DNA of 64,000 nucleotides. It comes from Micromonospora sp. NBC_01699 (GTDB taxonomy: Bacteria > Actinomycetota > Actinomycetes > Mycobacteriales > Micromonosporaceae). This document shows positions 8,097 through 19,054 of the stretch, piece after piece. How positions within the stretch are numbered: position 1 is the stretch's first letter; the number at the start of each line of letters is the position of its first letter. Below the pieces are notes generated by a model. It was not told where the DNA came from. It searched no databases and saw nothing but the letters and a program-made list of their open reading frames with translations. A program made the translations under genes and the position numbers. The stretch lies in contig NZ_CP109199.1 in NCBI RefSeq assembly GCF_036250065.1, positions 2,294,001-2,358,000 of the forward strand, written 5' to 3'.

Positions 8097-8607
8097 CGCT
8101 GTGCGCGCCACATAAGACATGTCGGATTCGTCGGCGCCCCGTCGGCTGGCCCCTGTTGACGCTTGTTTCGCAATACCGTCCCGTGTCAAATCAACGACAC
8201 CGACCAGCCTGGCTGAATACTCTCCCTCACTCAGGGGGCTAATCCGGCTGGAGGTGCAGGTCGGGCGGTGTGCCCGAGCGTGAGCGTCGACCGGCACCGG
8301 TTGTTGTTCTGGACGTCGTCGGGTGCGCCCGACCGATTTGTAAATTCGTAATACTTATTGCGGGTGTAGCCCCGAGGGAATTCAGCACCTATGATTCCGA
8401 GGTGTTCTCCGGGTGGGCGGGGCGGGCGGCCCCGCAGATCCCGGACGTCGATTCTCGCGTCGAATCGCCGTAATCGCACGGATTCCTGATCGGCAATGCG
8501 GAATCCGTTGTAGACCGTGTTTCCAGAAGGCCCGGTTTGGTATGCCTCCGGGCTGATTCCGCAGTTCCTCCGCCCATGAACGTGGTTCGTCGACTTGGGG
8601 GTAGAGA
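8097..8607. other. lower-GC intergenic stretch upstream of the giant LamG gene
   Basis: No supportable gene. GC content is visibly lower than in the surroundings (for example around 8335-8365, TTTGTAAATTCGTAATAC). An 8-bp inverted repeat lies at 8479-8486/8500-8507 (CGGATTCC/GGAATCCG). Together with the preceding fragment this looks like a junction of horizontally acquired DNA. The promoter of the LamG gene should lie here, but I cannot assign it. Confidence 0.4.
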
Positions 8608-11600
8608 GTGCCGAACAAGAACCTGGTCAGGGTTTACAGCGACAGAAAATACGTGTTCACGACGACGGTACGGCATCAGGGTACGACAGTGGCGTTCGCG
8701 ATGGACGACTCCGGGCGCATCTACTACAACGTGCTGAACCTGGAGCTGGGTAGCCGTGCGCGGGGCGAGATCGACAGCTCGTACTGGAGCGACAACCCGC
8801 CGCCGCTGACGTTCCCGAGCGAGATCACCGAGGTCGCTTTCGGTGGCGGCGAGACGGTCGGCGTGCCGCCGGTCAAGCTGGGCGGGCGGGTCGAGGTGGC
8901 CGCCGGCATGCAGGTGCAGCCCGAGGACCTGGACCCGTTCCTGTCCACGACGGCCCGGTTGGGCGTCCAGGCGCCGTTCCAGGTGGTCTCGGACGGCAGG
9001 TACCTGATGCTGTTTCGCCAGTCGGTTCACGAGACGCATCCGGACGCGCTGTTCCGACTGACCGGTGGCGGCGCCTCCGGGGACGCGAGCCGTACGGACT
9101 ATGTCCAGGTGGGTGGGGCCCGGGTGCCGGTGGTGTCCCGCACCGTCCTGTGTGACCGGTTCGTGCAGGTGGGCGCGACGGTCAAGCCGGTGCTTGAGGT
9201 GCGTTACCGGCGTAGCCGGAGCAAGACGTCGCCCGCCTCCGGTAGTGACACCCTGGGCACCCGGGACCTGGACGGTAACCCGTTCTACGAGCCCACCCGG
9301 CAGTTGTCCTTCGTCCGTAACGTCACCGAGGGCAGGTTCGCGGTGATGCTGTTGCCCACCCAGGTCGACGGTGTCTCGCGGTGGCAGCTGTTTGCGGTGA
9401 ACACACTGACCAGTCGTATCGACTCCTTCAACATCGAGCGTGCCGACGATGGGCTGTTCAACCTGGCGGGCACCCAGTTCTACACCAGCCCGGACCCGAG
9501 ATACGCGGCCTCGGTGCTCGAACGCGAGCCCGGCTCGGACCCGTTCACCAAGAAGCCGCTGGTGCCGGTCCCGCTGTCGACCGACCGGGCGGGGACCGCG
9601 TTGCGCCTCGACGGCCAGGACGACCACATCGACCTGGGCAGTGCGCCGAGCGCGCGGTTGCAGGGCGCGTACACGGTGGAAGTGTGGATCAACCCGGCCG
9701 CCACCGGTGGGGTCATCGTGGCCGCCGGGGACGGGACGCAGGCGGGATCGTTCACGCTCCGGTTGACCGCCGCCAAGGGACTGGTGTTGACCCATCCCGG
9801 CACCGGTAACACGCTGACCTCGCCCGATGCGCTGGTGGCGACCGGGCGCTACACCCATGTCGCGGCGGTTTTCGGCGGCGGCACCGGCGGCACCGGGGCC
9901 AAGGGCCGGCTGTACGTCGACGGCGTCGAGGTGGCCAGCGCGGCGATGTCGTTCACCTCCGCCTCGTCCTCCGGGGTGGCGACGTATGTCGGCGCCCGGC
10001 GGTCGGGGACCGGAGCGGCCGACTTCTTCCGTGGTGATGTCGACGAGGTGCGCGTCTGGAGTCAGGCGCGCACGGCCGCCGACCTGGCCCGCGACTTCCG
10101 TCGTCGTCTCGCCGGGGTCGAGCCGGGGTTGGTCGCGTACTACCGCTTCGACGAGGGCACGGGAAGCAGCGTCGCCGATCACACCGACAACGGGTTCGAC
10201 GGCACCGTCAGGGGCGCCGCGGTGTGGGTGACCTCGGGTGCGCCGGTGGGGGACAGCCCGGGACTGTCCCGGGAGACGTTCGGTTTCACGGGCCGGTCGC
10301 TGACCGCCGGGGTGGCCTCGGTGCTGTACTTCCAGCAGGAGGAGACCGTCGCAGGCTACGCCGACCAACCCAGCCCGACGAAGCGGCAGGCGCGGATCCT
10401 GCTGGCGTGCCCGACGGTCGACGCTTCTACCCCGGGTGGTGATCCACTGCTCGCCACCCTCGACCTCGCTCTCGCCACCGACGGCCGGCTGGCGCGGGTA
10501 CCCCGGTCGGTCGCGCTGTCCATCATTGGCCGCCCGAATCCGACCAAGGACATGGACGTGCTCAGCGCGGCTCAGGACGCGGTCACGGCCGCGCAGGCGA
10601 AGCTGGTCATGGATCAGAGTGTCCTTGACCAGGCGGACAAGGCCGTGCGGGATTCTTTTCCGTCGTACGAATACTGGAACGGCAGGTACTGGAACTTCGT
10701 CAATTCCGGGTACTGCTACGACGAGGGCAACTTCGTGTGGCCCCACGATCGTTCGGGTCGGGCGAACGACCTGCTGGGGGCGCTGAACTCGACGTCCTCG
10801 ACCTACAACGCCGCCGTGCGATCCCAGGAGGACGCGAAGGCGCAACTGGCCCGGGACCAGACACTGTTGGCGGACCGACAGGCCACGCTGGCCACGCTCA
10901 GCGGAGGGCTGCAAGGCAGCGACGACGTGACGCTGGCGATGCCGACCGTCGCCGTCGACACCACCGGACTGAGCATCTTCGGCGCCGTGCTGGCCTTCGC
11001 CTGGAGCCAGAACACCCCGGTCCTGCTCGACAGCGCGACCGGCGAGGTGGTGCTGTACTTCCGTGGTGCCGATGGGCAGTTCTTCTCCGTCTACTACGAC
11101 GTCACCGCCTTTCGGGCGATCAAGCAGATCACGCTCCCAACCGGCCGGCTCCAGTTGAGAAGCCGGGACACCGGGGTCGATCTGCCCGCGCTGGGGGTCA
11201 CCGTTTCGGCCGGCCCAGATGCTGCCCACTGCACGGTGGTGGTGACCCGTACGGCGAACAACACGACCCACACCGAGACGTTCAACGCGGTGCCCCGGCG
11301 CGCGGACCAGTTCGCGGCGGTCCTCAACGGCACCCCGACCGGGGACCTGCTCGGCACGGTCGCCTCGGTCCAGGCCAACACCCTGAACCTGGCCGCGCCG
11401 CTCGCCGCGGGACTGGCGTCGGGCACCCGGATCAGCGTGGCCGGGGTGGTCTACCAGCTGCGGGACTCCGTACCCGCCGTCTCCTCCCTCACCCTGACCA
11501 CCAGCCCGGCCACGGTACCGGCGGGTACGCAGGTACGGACCGTGGTTTACGACTACGTCTCGGCCACGGCCAGTCGCCCCGGTGCACGCCTGGAGCAGGG

Positions 11601-14600
11601 CTCGCTGATCGTCGCGGTCGACGCCGGTACGGCCACCGACACCGTGCCCAACGGCCCGGCCGCCGACGTGGTGGCCGGCCGGGGCAACCGCTGGCAGGGC
11701 AACGCCCCCGGGCGGGCGTACGCCTTCGACGGCGCCAAGCGTCTCGCTCTCCCGGCAGCCCAGCGTCCTCGGGCGGCGATGGTCGGCGACGTGACTCTGG
11801 AAGCCTGGGCCAACCCCGGCTTCGCCGGCGGGCAGAGCCGCATCGTGCACGCCAACCTGCCCGGCACCCCCACCACCCGCTACACCCTCGGCGTGTCCGG
11901 CGCCCCCTACCCCTCGGCGCTGGAGTTCAACGGGAGCAACGACTACCTCGACTGCGGCACCGGCATCAACCTGACCGGCACCTCCTTCACGATCGAGTTC
12001 TGGGCCAAGCGGCTGACGAACAGCCGGGAGGACTACATCATCGGCCTCGGCACATCGGGTGCGACAAGCCAGTACATGCACATCGGGTTCCGCTCCAACA
12101 ACGTGTTCTCGATGGATTTCTACAGCGACAGCGTGGACGTTCCTTCCTCTTACCTCGATCTGAACTGGCACCACTGGGCGTGCGTGTACGACCGGGAGGG
12201 CACCAACCGCCTCCAGATCATCTACCGGGACGGGGTGGAAGTCGCCCGTCGTACCGCCAACGCACATTTCGCCGGGACCGGCAAACTCATGCTCGGGCGG
12301 ATCGTCACCGCCCACTGGGACATCAAGGCGTACACCCAGTTGGACGAGGTACGCATCTGGAGTCGCGCCCGTTCCGCCGATGAGTTGAAGGCGGACAAGG
12401 ACCGTCGGCTGACCGGTCGGGAGGCAGGTCTGCTCGGTTACTGGAGTTTCGCCGGTCGGCGGACCACGGACCTGACCGGGCGGGGCAACGACGCGACGAT
12501 CGCCGGGAACCCGAAGGTCGTCGGCTCCAACTTCCCCGGATACAAGGTCCTCGCCGGGGTGGGCGACCAGCTCGTACGCAGCCGGGACGTCTACCCGGCC
12601 GGCCAGTGGGGCCACCTCGCGGCGGTGTTCGAGCAGGACTGGGCGCTGCGTTTCGACGGCGCCGCGTGGCTGGACACCGGCCGTGCCGACGCCCTCAACG
12701 TGGTCAACGACCTGACGATCGAGGTTGCCCTCCGGCTCGACGCGCTGGGCAACACCCAGGGGCTGGTGAGCAAGGGCGGGCTGGCCGACGGCGCCGGCGG
12801 GACCGTGCCGTACGTCTTCTACGTGCAGCCCGACGGGGCGCTGGCCTTCACCTACGAAAACAACGCGAGCACCCAGCCGGGCACCGCCGTCTCCACGACC
12901 AAACTCCAGGCGGGTGTGTTCACTCGGGTCGCGGTCACCCGCAAACCCAACCCGGGCAACCCGAACGCGACGGACGTCCAGTTCTACGTCAACGGCGTAC
13001 AGGCGGGCACCACCGCACTCACCGGCCCGGCGCCGACGGGCAACGACGGGGTCCTCGAAATCGGCCGCTACCGCATCGGCCAGACCGGCTACGGGCTGCG
13101 CGGCGTGCTCAGCGAGGTACGGCTGTGGAACATCGCCCGGGAGGCGGCGAAGATCGGTGTGGCGGTCACCGAGAGCACACCGGGCCTGGTCGCCCAGTGG
13201 ACGTTCCCGGAGAACGCCGGGAACACCACCGCCGACGTCGCCGGCAGCTACACCGGCAGACTGCACAGCGCCAGCTGGGTCAAGACACCCGACCCGGGCG
13301 GCAACCGGTTCCGGCTCTACCAGAACGGCGACGCGACCCCGGCCGACCCGGCTCCGGCCACGGACACCGCCGTGACCGCCGGCTATGGGGCCGAACAGTT
13401 CACCATCGGCGGCTGCACGAACGCCGACGACAGCCTGCGCGACGCCTTCGCCGGCACCCTCGACGAGATCCGGGTGTGGCAGACGGCGCGGACCGGGGAA
13501 CAGATTCTCGACAACGCCTTCACCCGACTGCGCGGGGAGTCCGAGGACCTCGTCTGCTACTACCCGTTCGACGCCTCCTCCACCGTCGCCGGTGCCCCGA
13601 TCCTCGACGCCGGACCGCGCGGGAACAACCTGGCCACCACCGCCGGCAAAGAACCCGCGATCGTGCTCTCCACCTCACCCGTCTCCACCGACACCGCCGA
13701 GGTCCGCTCCGCGCTGACCGGCATCCGTACCGCCTTCCACCAGAGGATCGGCGCCGCCCCCTCGGTGGCCGAGTACGCCGACGTCCAACGGATCCCGTAC
13801 CGAGGCGTCCAGGGAGTGATGAAACGCTGTTACGCCTACCAGCAGGACGGCAACTGGTACCTGGTCACCGGCTACAAGGTCGGTAACCTCGTCAGCACGT
13901 GGGTCGGCCAGGCCCAGTTCGACCCGCAGCTCGTCGGCTACATCGAAGGGGCGCCGCCGGTCCCCTCCGAGAACCTCGTCAAGCGTCCGGGCACCGACGA
14001 CTACGTCGACGCCGCCACGGTCTCCTTCGTTCAGGCCGAAGAGGTCACCAACACCCTGTCGTCCAGCCGGGAGACCAGCATGGACGTCTCGGCGAAGATG
14101 AAGTTCTCCTGGGAGGTCTCGGCGGACGTACTGTCGATCACCGCCCCCCTGGGTATGGGCACCGCCCAACCGCTCGCGAAACTCGCCATGGAGGGCAATC
14201 TCGAATTCGGCCTCGACTTCTCCAACGGCTGGACCAGTGACGCCGAGGTGTCCGAGGGCAGCAACACCACCCGTACCAGCACCGTCGCCCTCAGCGGCGC
14301 GTGGGAGGTCCCGGACCGCCCGCTCAACCCCGCCGCCGGCCAGCGGTGGATCCCGGCCAACACGGGCTACGCCCTGGTCCAGTCCGACACCGCCGACGTC
14401 TTCGCGCTGCGCCTGGAACACACCGGTGCGCTGGTCGCCTACCGGATGATGCCCAACCCCGACATCCCCCGCGACTGGAACATCATCGAGTTCCAGATCA
14501 ACCCGCTGTACACCAAACAGGGCACCCTCGACGGGCTCGTCGGCTACGGACTGACCGGTCCCTTCCCCGACCCCACCCACTATCCCACCGCCGGTGACGG

Positions 14601-15570
14601 CGCCGAGTACAGCTACTTCAAACCCCGCGAGGCGTACGCCCTCAAACGCCGCGTCGAGCGCCAGGCCCAGCAACTACAGAGCTACTACGACTCGGTGTCC
14701 ACCGAGACACACGCCCCCGACCGGACCGCCGAAAAGGCCAAGGAAGTGGCCAACAGGTCGTCGGCCCGGCGCAACCTGGCCAACACCTACGTCTGGACCG
14801 CCGGCGGCGGCTTCTTCGCCGAATCCACCGAGACCACCGACGCGGTCACCGAGACCACCGGCGGGTCCTACTCCGTCAAGGGCACCCTCAGCGGCGGCGG
14901 CATGTTCGAGATCGGCGGCGCCGCGGGCGGCACGAAAATAGGCTTCGAGGCCAGTATCGCGGGCGGCACCAGCGTCACCCGTACCAGGGCGAAGACGGCC
15001 ACGAAGACGTTCGGGCTCGACGTCGAATGCACCGGCGGCCGGGATCTCCAGCGCTACACCAACGGCGAGACCGCCGTCTACGATCCCGCGACCAACCAGC
15101 CCGTCACCACCCCCGGCAGGGTCGACGCGTACCGATTTATGACCTTCTATCTCGACGTCACCAAGGACAACTTCGAGGACTTCTACGGCAAGGTGGTCGA
15201 CCCAATCTGGCTCGCCACCTCCCCCCAGGCCGCCGCCCTACGCCAAGCCAACCAGGCCGACCAGAAACCACCCTGCTGGCGCGTCTTCCACCGGGTCACC
15301 TTCGTCAGCCGCCTACTCGACCCGGTCGCCGCTTCCTCCTCCGCCCCGGCATCCCTGGCCAAGGCGCTGCAAGGCGAAGGCTTCAGCAGCGTCTACGACC
15401 TCATCCAAAGCCTCGAACCCGACATCAGAAGCAATCCCGCGAACCTCGCCGACCTCGCCAACCTGAGCGCCGCCACCACCGAGCTGCTCACCAAGAAGCT
15501 GTACCGGCTCACCCCGTACCGCCAGGAGATCATCGTGCACGTCGCCCGCTACCTCGGCATCGACCGGTGA
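8608..15570 (+). CDS. giant multi-LamG protein with nested LamG domains and novel C-terminal module
   Basis: 2320 residues from a GTG preceded by GGGGGTAGAGA. Layout by eye: a beta-rich N-terminal region (1-325); an intact LamG/concanavalin-A-like domain (about 330-540, ending DEVRVWSQART and AYYRFDEGTG); a predicted helical hairpin (649-685 and 732-765) around an aromatic-rich loop; and a beta-rich spacer (770-1030). A second LamG starts at about 1037 but is interrupted by a complete LamG (1101-1311), resumes at 1312-1343 (ending GQWGHLAAVFEQ), is interrupted by another complete LamG (1344-1565), and finishes at 1566-1675 (FRLYQNG, FTIGG, LDEIRVWQTART). The C-terminal 630 residues match no family I know and hold Ser/Thr-rich alternating strands. 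No signal peptide or membrane helix is seen, so localisation is open. LamG domains usually bind glycans or proteins; function is unknown. Confidence 0.85.
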   Translation: MPNKNLVRVYSDRKYVFTTTVRHQGTTVAFAMDDSGRIYYNVLNLELGSRARGEIDSSYWSDNPPPLTFPSEITEVAFGGGETVGVPPVKLGGRVEVAAGMQVQPEDLDPFLSTTARLGVQAPFQVVSDGRYLMLFRQSVHETHPDALFRLTGGGASGDASRTDYVQVGGARVPVVSRTVLCDRFVQVGATVKPVLEVRYRRSRSKTSPASGSDTLGTRDLDGNPFYEPTRQLSFVRNVTEGRFAVMLLPTQVDGVSRWQLFAVNTLTSRIDSFNIERADDGLFNLAGTQFYTSPDPRYAASVLEREPGSDPFTKKPLVPVPLSTDRAGTALRLDGQDDHIDLGSAPSARLQGAYTVEVWINPAATGGVIVAAGDGTQAGSFTLRLTAAKGLVLTHPGTGNTLTSPDALVATGRYTHVAAVFGGGTGGTGAKGRLYVDGVEVASAAMSFTSASSSGVATYVGARRSGTGAADFFRGDVDEVRVWSQARTAADLARDFRRRLAGVEPGLVAYYRFDEGTGSSVADHTDNGFDGTVRGAAVWVTSGAPVGDSPGLSRETFGFTGRSLTAGVASVLYFQQEETVAGYADQPSPTKRQARILLACPTVDASTPGGDPLLATLDLALATDGRLARVPRSVALSIIGRPNPTKDMDVLSAAQDAVTAAQAKLVMDQSVLDQADKAVRDSFPSYEYWNGRYWNFVNSGYCYDEGNFVWPHDRSGRANDLLGALNSTSSTYNAAVRSQEDAKAQLARDQTLLADRQATLATLSGGLQGSDDVTLAMPTVAVDTTGLSIFGAVLAFAWSQNTPVLLDSATGEVVLYFRGADGQFFSVYYDVTAFRAIKQITLPTGRLQLRSRDTGVDLPALGVTVSAGPDAAHCTVVVTRTANNTTHTETFNAVPRRADQFAAVLNGTPTGDLLGTVASVQANTLNLAAPLAAGLASGTRISVAGVVYQLRDSVPAVSSLTLTTSPATVPAGTQVRTVVYDYVSATASRPGARLEQGSLIVAVDAGTATDTVPNGPAADVVAGRGNRWQGNAPGRAYAFDGAKRLALPAAQRPRAAMVGDVTLEAWANPGFAGGQSRIVHANLPGTPTTRYTLGVSGAPYPSALEFNGSNDYLDCGTGINLTGTSFTIEFWAKRLTNSREDYIIGLGTSGATSQYMHIGFRSNNVFSMDFYSDSVDVPSSYLDLNWHHWACVYDREGTNRLQIIYRDGVEVARRTANAHFAGTGKLMLGRIVTAHWDIKAYTQLDEVRIWSRARSADELKADKDRRLTGREAGLLGYWSFAGRRTTDLTGRGNDATIAGNPKVVGSNFPGYKVLAGVGDQLVRSRDVYPAGQWGHLAAVFEQDWALRFDGAAWLDTGRADALNVVNDLTIEVALRLDALGNTQGLVSKGGLADGAGGTVPYVFYVQPDGALAFTYENNASTQPGTAVSTTKLQAGVFTRVAVTRKPNPGNPNATDVQFYVNGVQAGTTALTGPAPTGNDGVLEIGRYRIGQTGYGLRGVLSEVRLWNIAREAAKIGVAVTESTPGLVAQWTFPENAGNTTADVAGSYTGRLHSASWVKTPDPGGNRFRLYQNGDATPADPAPATDTAVTAGYGAEQFTIGGCTNADDSLRDAFAGTLDEIRVWQTARTGEQILDNAFTRLRGESEDLVCYYPFDASSTVAGAPILDAGPRGNNLATTAGKEPAIVLSTSPVSTDTAEVRSALTGIRTAFHQRIGAAPSVAEYADVQRIPYRGVQGVMKRCYAYQQDGNWYLVTGYKVGNLVSTWVGQAQFDPQLVGYIEGAPPVPSENLVKRPGTDDYVDAATVSFVQAEEVTNTLSSSRETSMDVSAKMKFSWEVSADVLSITAPLGMGTAQPLAKLAMEGNLEFGLDFSNGWTSDAEVSEGSNTTRTSTVALSGAWEVPDRPLNPAAGQRWIPANTGYALVQSDTADVFALRLEHTGALVAYRMMPNPDIPRDWNIIEFQINPLYTKQGTLDGLVGYGLTGPFPDPTHYPTAGDGAEYSYFKPREAYALKRRVERQAQQLQSYYDSVSTETHAPDRTAEKAKEVANRSSARRNLANTYVWTAGGGFFAESTETTDAVTETTGGSYSVKGTLSGGGMFEIGGAAGGTKIGFEASIAGGTSVTRTRAKTATKTFGLDVECTGGRDLQRYTNGETAVYDPATNQPVTTPGRVDAYRFMTFYLDVTKDNFEDFYGKVVDPIWLATSPQAAALRQANQADQKPPCWRVFHRVTFVSRLLDPVAASSSAPASLAKALQGEGFSSVYDLIQSLEPDIRSNPANLADLANLSAATTELLTKKLYRLTPYRQEIIVHVARYLGIDR

Positions 15571-15619
15571 CCCCACGACCGGAGTCGAGATGATCGCGCC
15601 ATAGACACCCGAAGGCCGA

Positions 15620-15654
15620 CGGCCCCGGTGCGGCCACCCGCTGCGCCGGGGCCG
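15620..15654. terminator. GC-rich hairpin between convergent genes
   Basis: A perfect 9-bp stem CGGCCCCGG/CCGGGGCCG lies about 50 bases after the LamG stop. Symmetric stems like this can serve both strands. No T-run follows, as is usual for high-GC actinobacteria. Confidence 0.45.
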
Positions 15655-15683
15655 CGTCGCCCTCAGGTGATCATGGAGTGGGC

Positions 15684-15730: not shown

Positions 15731-18700
15731 CTACGTGCAGGCAACGCCGTTGACGGTGAACAGACCGGGCGTGGGGTTGGGGCCGCTGGTGGGGGTGGTG
15801 GCGTTCAGGCCGAAGGTTGCCGTGCCGCCGGGGGAGATGCGGGCGTTGTACGTTTCGTTTCGGGCGGTGATGGTGGCGCCGGACTGGGTGGCCCGGGTCA
15901 TCCACGCCTCGCGCAGCCGCTGGTCGCCGGTGAAGGCGAAGCTCGCCGTCCAGCCGTCGATCGGGGTGCTGCCGGTGTTGGTGATGGTCACCTGTGCGGT
16001 GAACCCGCCACCGCCCTGCCAGGCGCCGTAGTTGACGTAGCTGACCCGGCAGTTCGCCGCCGGGGGTACGGCGGCGGCGCCCTGGTCGGCGAGGAACGAG
16101 GCGATCCAGGCCAGTGCCGAGTTCCAGTTGATCGCCACCTCGTTGGTCGCATACGAGGCGATGTCGTCGACGTAGCAGAACATCGGGGCGCAGCCGGCCA
16201 GCAGGTCCGCCGCGAACGGGTCGTCCAGACTGGCGTTGGCGCCACCGGCGATCGAACCGGCCGGCGGGTTCGGCAGGGCCGGGTTGTACTGGTTGCCGAA
16301 GATCCGGCTGTGCTGGTTGCGGGACGCCTGCTCACCCCAGCCGGTCACGTACGACTGGTTCAGCGCGTTGCGGCCGAAGATGTAGTCCATCCCCTGCACC
16401 GCCCCGTCCCGGTAACGCACGTCCCGGGTCAGGTCGTACGCCGTCGCGAGCACCACCGCGTTGTTGATGATGTTGCCGTTCCCGCCCCAGAAGTAGCTGC
16501 CCGCGCCGCCCGGCATCGGCAGCCCGTACGCCTGACCGGCCAGGGTGGTGAGGTAGCCGTCGGCGGCGGTGCGCACCGAGGCCCGGATCCGGTCCCGTTC
16601 CTGCGGGGCCAGCCCGCTCGGCACGGTGGCCAGGTCGAGCCGGCCGAGTGCGGCAGTGCCGCCCCAGCCGAAGCCGTTGGCGTCGAAGACGTTGCCGGTG
16701 TGGTGCGGTGAGGCGGTCAGGTCGGCCAGGTAGTTCGCCCCGCCGGTGCTCAGGTACAGCTCGGCCGCCGCCCAGTAGAACTCGTCGCTGACGTCGTTGT
16801 CGCTGTAGGTGCCGCCGCCGTTGCCGTCGGTCGGGCTGGCGTACACGGCCGGGTTGGCCTTGGCCGCCGCGTACGCGGTCCGGGCGGCGCTGCCGCACCT
16901 GGCCGCGAACGGCGCGTCGTAGGTGGCGTAGAGCCGGGCGCACTGGGCGGCGGTCGCCGCGAGGTTGAGCGTGGCGGCGGTCGACGGCGGGTGCAGTTCG
17001 CGCGGTTGCGGGTCGGCCTCCGGGGCCAGCGGCAGGCCGGTCCAGTTCTGGTCGTGCATCTTGTGGTGGACCATGCCCGCCTTCGGCTTGCCGGCCGGCA
17101 CCTGCATCCGGAGCAGGAACTCCAGCTCCCAGCGCGCCTCGTCGAGGATGTCCGGCACCCCGTTGTCGCGTTCGGGCACCCGCAGGGTGTTGTCGGCGAG
17201 TCCGGCACCGGCGCCGCCGGTCGGCGCGGTCTTGGTCCGCTCGAACGCGTTCAGTAGCTGGTAGGTGGCGATGCCGCCGTTGACCACGTACTTGCCGTGG
17301 TCGCCGGCGTCGTACCAGCCGCCGCGCGCGTCGAGGCGGTAGTCGCAGACGCCGGGCTGGCAGGGCACGTCGGTGTCGCCCCGGTTCGGGGCCACGCCGA
17401 GGTGACCGGCGGGGCGGGCGTACTCGTCGCCGACCAGGTCGCCGTCGATGGCGATGCCGCTGCGCTGGACGTAGAAGAACTGGAGCGAGTCGGAGCGCAG
17501 TTGCCGGTAGAGGTCACCGGAGATGTCGAACGGGTGGCTGGTCTCGCCGTCGGCGGTCAGCGTGTAGCCGGTGCCGGCGGTCCGGTAGGCGGAGAAGTCG
17601 ATCGTCTGCACCCGCTGGCCGGAGGCGGGGTCCAGGCCGCGCACGGTGGCCAGTCCCTGGGTGACGACCGTCCCGGCGGCGGACTTGAGCTGCCAGGGCA
17701 GGGGTTCGGTGGCGGTGCTGACCACGGTGGCGTTCTTCGGGCCACCGGGAAGGTAACCGACCTGGTTGACGCGTACCCGGGGGCCGGTGTCCGGCACGTA
17801 CGGCGGTTCTTCCTCGCCACCGCGCAGCGAGACGTTGTCCAGGCAGAGGGTGTAGCCGGCGGCGTTGGCGCCGACCTGGAACACGACCTGGGCGAACTCG
17901 GTGTCCACTGTGGCGGTGAAGGTCAGGGTGATCCGCTGCGGGGTCGCGGTCAGCGCCAGGTCCGCGACAAAGAACGAGGTGTACGGTTCCGCGCCGAGTT
18001 GCACCGCCGCGCGTACGCTGGCGCCGGGTGCCGCCGAGGCGTCGAAGGCGAGCGTGTACTCCGACCCGGCGAGCAGCGGTACGTCGTTCTGCCCGACTCC
18101 GGCGTCCCACGGGTTGGCCAGCCCACCGGGCACCACCGAGCAGAGCCGCCCGTCCTGCACACCGGTGGTGGTCCCGTACGAGAACCAGCCGTCGCTACCG
18201 TTGTCGAAGTTCCCGTTGGCGAGCTGTTCCGGTCCGGCCGGGTCGCCCGGCGGATCGGTGCCCGCCTCGCTGCTCAGCGACACGTCGTCCAGGCAGAACG
18301 TGTACGGCTGGGCGTTGCCACCGAGTTGGAAGGTGAGGGTCCCGTTGGTGGAGTCCAGGGTGCCGCTGAAGTCGTACGCGAAGGTCTGCCCGGCCGGGGC
18401 GAGCGCCAGGTCCCGGGCCAGCACCGTGCTGTACGGCGCCTCGTTGAGCTGCACGTTCGCCTTGACGGTGGCCGGGGCGCTGGCCGAGGCGTGCAGGGAC
18501 AGCGCGTAATCGGCGCCGTCGACCAGGGGGATGTCGTTGTGTCCGAGGCTGGCGTCCCAGGGGTTGGCCAGGCCGCCCGGCACCTGGACGCAGAGTCGTC
18601 CGTCGTCCACGGTCGGGGTGAGATTGTCGGTTGCCCACCAGGGGGCGGTGCCGCTGTCGAAGGTGCCGTTGGCGATGTGCTCGGTGGGGGCGGCGTGGGC

Positions 18701-18790
18701 CGCGCCGGGGGTGAGGCCGGTGCCGGTGACGGCGAGGGCGGTCGCGGCGAGGAGCGCGACAGCCCGCCGCTGGCGTCGGGGTCGGGTCAC
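15731..18790 (-). CDS. secreted GH9 endoglucanase with two CBM4-like modules and a CBM2
   Basis: 1019 residues from a GTG start behind GGAAGG. A twin-Arg-like basic stretch and signal peptide end AAHAAPTEH. Two similar CBM4/9-type modules follow (about 35-175 and 185-325; each has [20 protein letters not shown] and GLANPWDA). Next are the CelD N-terminal Ig-like domain (from [11 protein letters not shown], about 337), the GH9 catalytic domain with the Asp motif [17 protein letters not shown] (about 490) and the general-acid Glu in [15 protein letters not shown] (about 880). A C-terminal cellulose-binding CBM2 ends at residue 1019 ([21 protein letters not shown]). It hydrolyses beta-1,4-glucan outside the cell. 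A perfect CebR box upstream indicates cello-oligosaccharide control. It is monocistronic. Confidence 0.92.
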
Positions 18791-18815
18791 GGAGCTTCCT
18801 TCCGAGAGACAGAGG

Positions 18816-18829
18816 TGGGAGCGCTCCCA
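18816..18829. promoter_or_regulatory. CebR-type operator upstream of the cellulase
   Basis: TGGGAGCGCTCCCA is a perfect 14-bp palindrome 26 bases upstream of the cellulase start. It is identical to the established binding site of CebR, the LacI-family repressor of cellulose/cellobiose genes in actinomycetes, which releases DNA in the presence of cellobiose or cellotriose. The repressor gene is not in this window. Confidence 0.85.
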
Positions 18830-19054
18830 ATGACAGCGATGTTGCCAGGCCGTTTCTGGACTGTCAATCGTCGATCCTGAATGGATTGACCGCCGGCCCG
18901 GACCCACCCATCGGTCCGAGCCTGCCCATCGGTCGGACCGATCGCGGGCAGGATCGGTTAACCGACAGCCCACACGCGACCCGTCGACTGTCAGGAACTC
19001 GGCGGATAGGCCAAAATGGATGGTTCGAGCCCACGGGGCGATCGGGGGAAACAG

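Follow-up and report, generated by a model that had tools for sequence, protein, structure and literature searches.

Nested LamG domains in a Micromonospora protein: a host domain very probably split around two complete guests, with an apparently changeable insertion site

Introduction

Domain insertion as such is already known, and two described systems are among those closest to the case reported here. In the neuraminidase of Vibrio cholerae, a lectin domain that is laminin G-like (LamG-like) is inserted in a beta-propeller enzyme, and in the LNS domains of neurexin and agrin short splice inserts in LamG loops alter binding. We describe a gene of Micromonospora sp. NBC_01699 in a stretch of 64,000 nucleotides (contig NZ_CP109199.1, positions 2,294,001 to 2,358,000; hereafter the window, whose own numbering we use) that encodes a protein of 2320 aa in one open frame with a GTG start (8608-15570, + strand). 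Within this protein, one host LamG domain is very probably divided into three pieces (A, C and E) around two complete LamG domains, guest 1 in slot 1 and guest 2 in slot 2. As in sialidases with a lectin in the propeller, a LamG-like lectin would thus be inserted into another domain, but the host there is a beta-propeller, whereas in the present case the host has the fold of its guests. As in neurexin and agrin, LamG loops would tolerate inserts, although those are short peptides and these are gene-encoded whole domains of ~210 residues.

The family concerned is Laminin_G_3 (PF13385) of the ConA-like lectin superfamily, to which the guests, a stand-alone LamG of the same protein and, by its pieces, the host all belong; the host differs in being discontinuous, with two whole members of its own family in its loops. 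Matches to the LamGs of PAPP-A, pentraxin and BACOVA_03559 (4dqa) cover one guest only, and when a profile of the nested region was compared with solved sequences, 18 matched, and in each of them the best stretch spans one LamG of the region at most. What appears unusual is the combination: the host is of the same fold as its guests, both of its slots are occupied together, slot 1 is empty, filled or differently filled, and the arrangement extends over two phyla. Literature searches on nested and inserted domains, in which subscription journals are thinly covered and sources were accessible in part, returned no description of a nested LamG. A further paper, PMC4737653, concerns the designed insertion of one protein into another, with beta-sheet-containing proteins, and is thus de novo design rather than a natural LamG in a LamG.

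Results

A plain Pfam scan of the protein returns four Laminin_G_3 stretches and conceals the nested architecture. We give the matches piece by piece, against the family profile of 151 positions (cut-off 27.6 bits). Guest 1 (residues 1101-1311; 11908-12540, + strand, as are all parts of this gene) matches positions 1-150 at 75.2 bits and guest 2 (residues 1344-1565; 12637-13302) positions 5-150 at 76.6 bits, both full-length and above the cut-off. Around them, piece A (residues 1030-1100; 11695-11907) matches positions 16-52 at 15.1 bits, well under the cut-off, and piece E (residues 1566-1690, searched as 1566-1680; 13303-13677) positions 93-150 at 27.0 bits, just under it; piece C, between the slots (residues 1312-1343; 12541-12636), gave no match in the Pfam search. 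A profile built from guest 1 (197 positions) places A at 22-50, C at 72-94 and E at 111-185, ordered and non-overlapping, so that the host reads as A+C+E, guest 1 following A and guest 2 following C. Each guest is complete, the host continues on either side of it, and the host pieces cover the family profile in order. The first-pass annotation, whose residue numbers fit the 2320-aa frame, had claimed that a LamG is split by two complete inserted LamGs and that the three outer pieces give one LamG order; both claims agree with these matches, and the first also with the relatives lacking guest 1 described below. On this evidence, it is very nearly certain that a single host LamG, divided in three, encloses two LamG guests that are each complete.

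An AlphaFold model of residues 1015-1690 (pLDDT 82.4, pTM 0.77) shows both guests as complete jelly rolls, with host strands flanking each guest in LamG order. Foldseek matches listed for it include the sialidase entries 1kit, NanB and NanC.

Slot 1 varies among relatives. We compiled 49 rows, each required to contain guest 2, of which 43 could be scored for slot 1 (L011, L125, L128, L132, L136 and L137 were left unscored). Duplicates (L084, L086-L089, L098, L141), two loci with a guest-2 score <100 (L116, L131) and L085, nested by eye but under the thresholds, had been left out before counting. Slot 1 is empty in 12/43 rows, with 3-8 residues separating A and C, contains one LamG-sized insert in 30/43 (the window included) and holds 437 residues in the remaining one. 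The empty rows are nine actinomycete and three cyanobacterial; in Streptomyces sp. NBC_00690 (L083), for example, guest 1 is lacking and A runs directly into C. Relatives without guest 1 thus carry a host uninterrupted at slot 1: in all five of the 12 that were scanned, A+C is one continuous Laminin_G_3 match from 10-13 to 88 (22.9-41.3 bits), above the Pfam cut-off in four of the five, compared with 15.1 bits for A of the window alone. We take these natural relatives as the deciding evidence for the nesting.

An automatic rule that requires an N-part, then a full LamG, then a complementary C-part, and is by design blind to the double nest of the window itself, was positive in 14 frames, the frames with a full LamG numbering 143 (duplicates included). 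The positives comprise 11 of the 12 slot-1-empty relatives, in which the rule sees host and guest 2 (L129, for example, reads 3-96, full guest, 97-192), together with L126, L012 and the duplicate of the latter, L090. The rule missed one slot-1-empty relative, L115, and no frame was positive in loci L014-L079.

Our first searches relied on guest 2, and relatives with an empty slot 2 were therefore sought through the C-terminal region, in the order of a cyanobacterial relative. Thirty loci were fetched, of which 18 have piece E and 12 come from a sister subfamily that nests differently. Every one of the 18 main-type loci also has guest 2, either complete or truncated where the locus stops, and no slot-2-empty relative was found among them. 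Slot 2 thus appears old and fixed in this sample and slot 1 changeable.

Relatives are patchily distributed. A contig scan yielded 78 loci, including full-length relatives in Micromonospora and cyanobacteria; in M. matsumotoense, M. rubida and M. rosaria the match extends over residues 1-2320 and its best segment is 81-86% identical, and plasmid records add relatives from Streptomyces clavuligerus, Streptomyces sp. NBC_00690 and Calothrix. In genome-wide searches, which mostly scored only a few candidates per genome, the nested region was matched wholly or partly in 2/101 genomes of the same family and 2/296 of the same class (the own genome included in both), in 17/341 of another actinomycete family, and in 21/243 of the order of a cyanobacterial relative, where some matches are to one guest only. 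The order of pieces is retained in relatives from other genera and another phylum; because of this, and because slot 1 is empty in 12 relatives, the arrangement is more than chance. One cyanobacterial genome has a second family copy (L171) with four stop codons within its C-terminal match, which therefore is probably a broken gene.

Further nestings occur in relatives. In L126, the slot-1 guest is apparently split by a complete LamG, with residues 207-268 and 484-640 around 269-483. On Laminin_G_3 the C-part of the guest covers 58-151 and the inner domain 1-151; the N-part lacks a Pfam LamG match and rests on positions 2-39 of the family profile, leaving positions 40-70 unaccounted for. L126 is thus an apparent LamG inside a LamG inside a LamG. 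In L012, of the sister subfamily, a later loop of the host is the one interrupted (family profile 2-116, then a full guest, then 116-197; on Pfam 4-105, 2-151 and 128-150, the outer two under the cut-off), and the cyanobacterial sister loci (L012 and the L156-L172 range) likewise have a LamG nested at a later LamG loop, in split and unsplit versions. Of 12 sister loci, six have a full LamG after which the C-part resumes, with the N-part also seen in L156 and L157; the other six lack a visible split, one of them with a match beginning only at position 52. Piece E, another site of insertion, is split by ~200 residues in L123 and L137 (the L123 insert matches Laminin_G_3 at 25.0 bits, just under the cut-off). 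By eye, piece A is split as well in L011, a Moorena relative, where about three LamG-lengths lie between A and C (residues ~1058-1836).

The remainder of the protein comprises a stand-alone LamG (residues ~330-560; 9595-10287; Laminin_G_3 1-150, 93.5 bits), a middle region whose arms look coiled-coil-like by eye and which has no Pfam match in the window protein (residues 561-1014; 10288-11649), and a C-terminal region (residues 1691-2320; 13678-15567) that is conserved across relatives (alignment n=13) and belongs to no known family. For the C-terminal region the window protein has no Pfam match at E 0.1, and the best PDB profile match is an amidohydrolase at E 0.37. Two weak Pfam families on the C-terminal alignment, each in just 1/13 members, were taken for chance. 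To the eye some strands in it look membrane-like, which is a hunch. Known pore-forming families were considered for this region, where the window protein showed no Pfam match and no PDB profile match better than that at E 0.37. NCBIfam and defence libraries assigned no function to the protein: a TafC match scored 36.7 against a cut-off of 410, far below, and the four phage families matched are every one of unknown function.

A search of the own genome returned a single match to the 2320-aa protein, namely itself. DNA likeness to three Micromonospora relatives (L002-L004, 85-88%) spans window positions 8378-15655 and ends at or near the gene edges; the flanks are unmatched, except for two short pieces in L002. 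The pattern looks as if a single gene had moved alone. The next large frame (15731-18973, - strand) looks by eye like a secreted cellulase, presumably of glycoside hydrolase family 9 type.

Discussion

Taken as a whole, these observations are probably best explained by a compound lectin-type head, in which a host LamG carries two LamG guests in the loops after two of its strands. The host would fold as one jelly roll despite two inserts, and a guest would plug into a host hairpin like a long loop, being acceptable there since the strand that opens it and the one that closes it are neighbours. Slot 1 would be a tolerated insertion point where LamG cassettes enter, drop out or give way to others, perhaps through in-frame recombination between LamG-coding stretches. 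The head would then show several glycan-binding (or similar) faces as a rigid cluster serving the C-terminal region, and with several faces displayed a change of guest would therefore be a change of target. A bolder version, for which we see about even chances, is that evolution has made the host LamG a socket, a beta-sandwich whose hairpins take whole lectin domains, and that bacteria of distant phyla swap binding cassettes within one domain instead of along a chain, up to three levels in L126.

The role of such a head is the least firm part of this explanation. The likely role would be that of a multivalent head whose carbohydrate-binding domains can be exchanged, set on an uncharacterised C-terminal region. 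The display role itself we consider evenly poised. The nested layout could instead be a structural scaffold only, its guests being spacers or rigid arms rather than binding modules. That the family is known here from sequence alone fits this, as does the great variation of the guests, for which the nearest other slot-1 guest is as low as 29% identical. However, two relatives (L012 and L013) have a ricin-type lectin in the coiled-coil region, which fits binding better than a spacer, and we regard the scaffold as unlikely, though a serious contender. A third, L082, has a weak crystallin-like match in that region, which is a possible further docking place. Of the inserts identified, most have lectin-type folds: those within the host are LamGs, those within the coiled-coil region ricin-type.

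The history of slot 1 was read from trees. On a backbone tree of guest 2 and the following regions, the empty or filled state of the slot changes at least four times. For a guest tree, 55 other LamGs, nearest or of the same family, were added to 30 slot-1 guests, of which 29 are single and one is the inner guest of L126. Here one might suppose that slot 1 was filled once ancestrally and emptied several times, with fast evolution or gene conversion misleading the guest tree. Eleven actinomycete guests, including that of the window, do form one clade (99/93), and a clade of eight empty rows amid filled ones looks like loss. Against this, slot-1 guests are not one clade: an enforced single clade is rejected (AU p 2.6e-6), and in a carefully built tree of 84 rows, which omits one long branch and needs 12 changes, seven of them forced by supported branches, a single slot-1 clade appears in 0% of 200 bootstrap trees. 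The guest of L082 is closest to the first LamG of the same protein (99/96), those of L106/L111 to a LamG farther upstream in their own proteins (99/95), and those of L117/L123 and of L118/L119 group with LamGs of other proteins; these groupings with LamGs of other positions or proteins have bootstrap >=96. Slot 1 would therefore have been refilled or its guest replaced, and gene conversion of a guest would still be cassette exchange. We hold a single ancestral filling to be distinctly improbable, and it is in all likelihood the case that the guests of slot 1 change. The outlying guests may be fresh insertions or replacements, two events that the tree does not separate.

One could also suppose a row of tandem LamGs, one copy of it degenerate and truncated, with A and E as remnants of different LamGs and nothing nested. 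This would fit the low Pfam scores of A and E and the lack of a match for C, but we consider it very improbable indeed, since the stretches matched by A, C and E complement one another and follow in order, relatives with an empty slot 1 read A+C as one continuous LamG half and show an N-part, a full guest and the C-part that completes it (L129, for example), and all three pieces contain residues invariant across ten sequences from two phyla, unlike decaying remnants.

Several points nevertheless weigh against the compound nested head. Taken singly, both A and E fall under the Pfam cut-off, and four of the 12 empty rows (L099, L108-L110) are near-copies, leaving fewer independent cases than 12. 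The AlphaFold model of the nested region was built from only 10 sequences, and none among the 50 fold-search matches listed covers the host; the structural check proposed in the first-pass annotation thus returned the two guest jelly rolls and the host strands in LamG order, whereas a closed host jelly roll is what we infer. With 18/18 loci filled, there is no evidence of slot 2 as exchangeable or of guest 2 as a late insert. Finally, no signal peptide is evident by eye in the 2320-aa protein, which is odd for a lectin destined for the outside.

For protein engineering, the family offers natural hairpin sites that take 200-residue domains. For the biology of the family itself, a single site that occurs in nature empty, filled and, it appears, doubly nested provides a ready evolutionary series, which lets one ask how insertion is tolerated, how a split beta-sandwich folds and how specificity changes in binding proteins.
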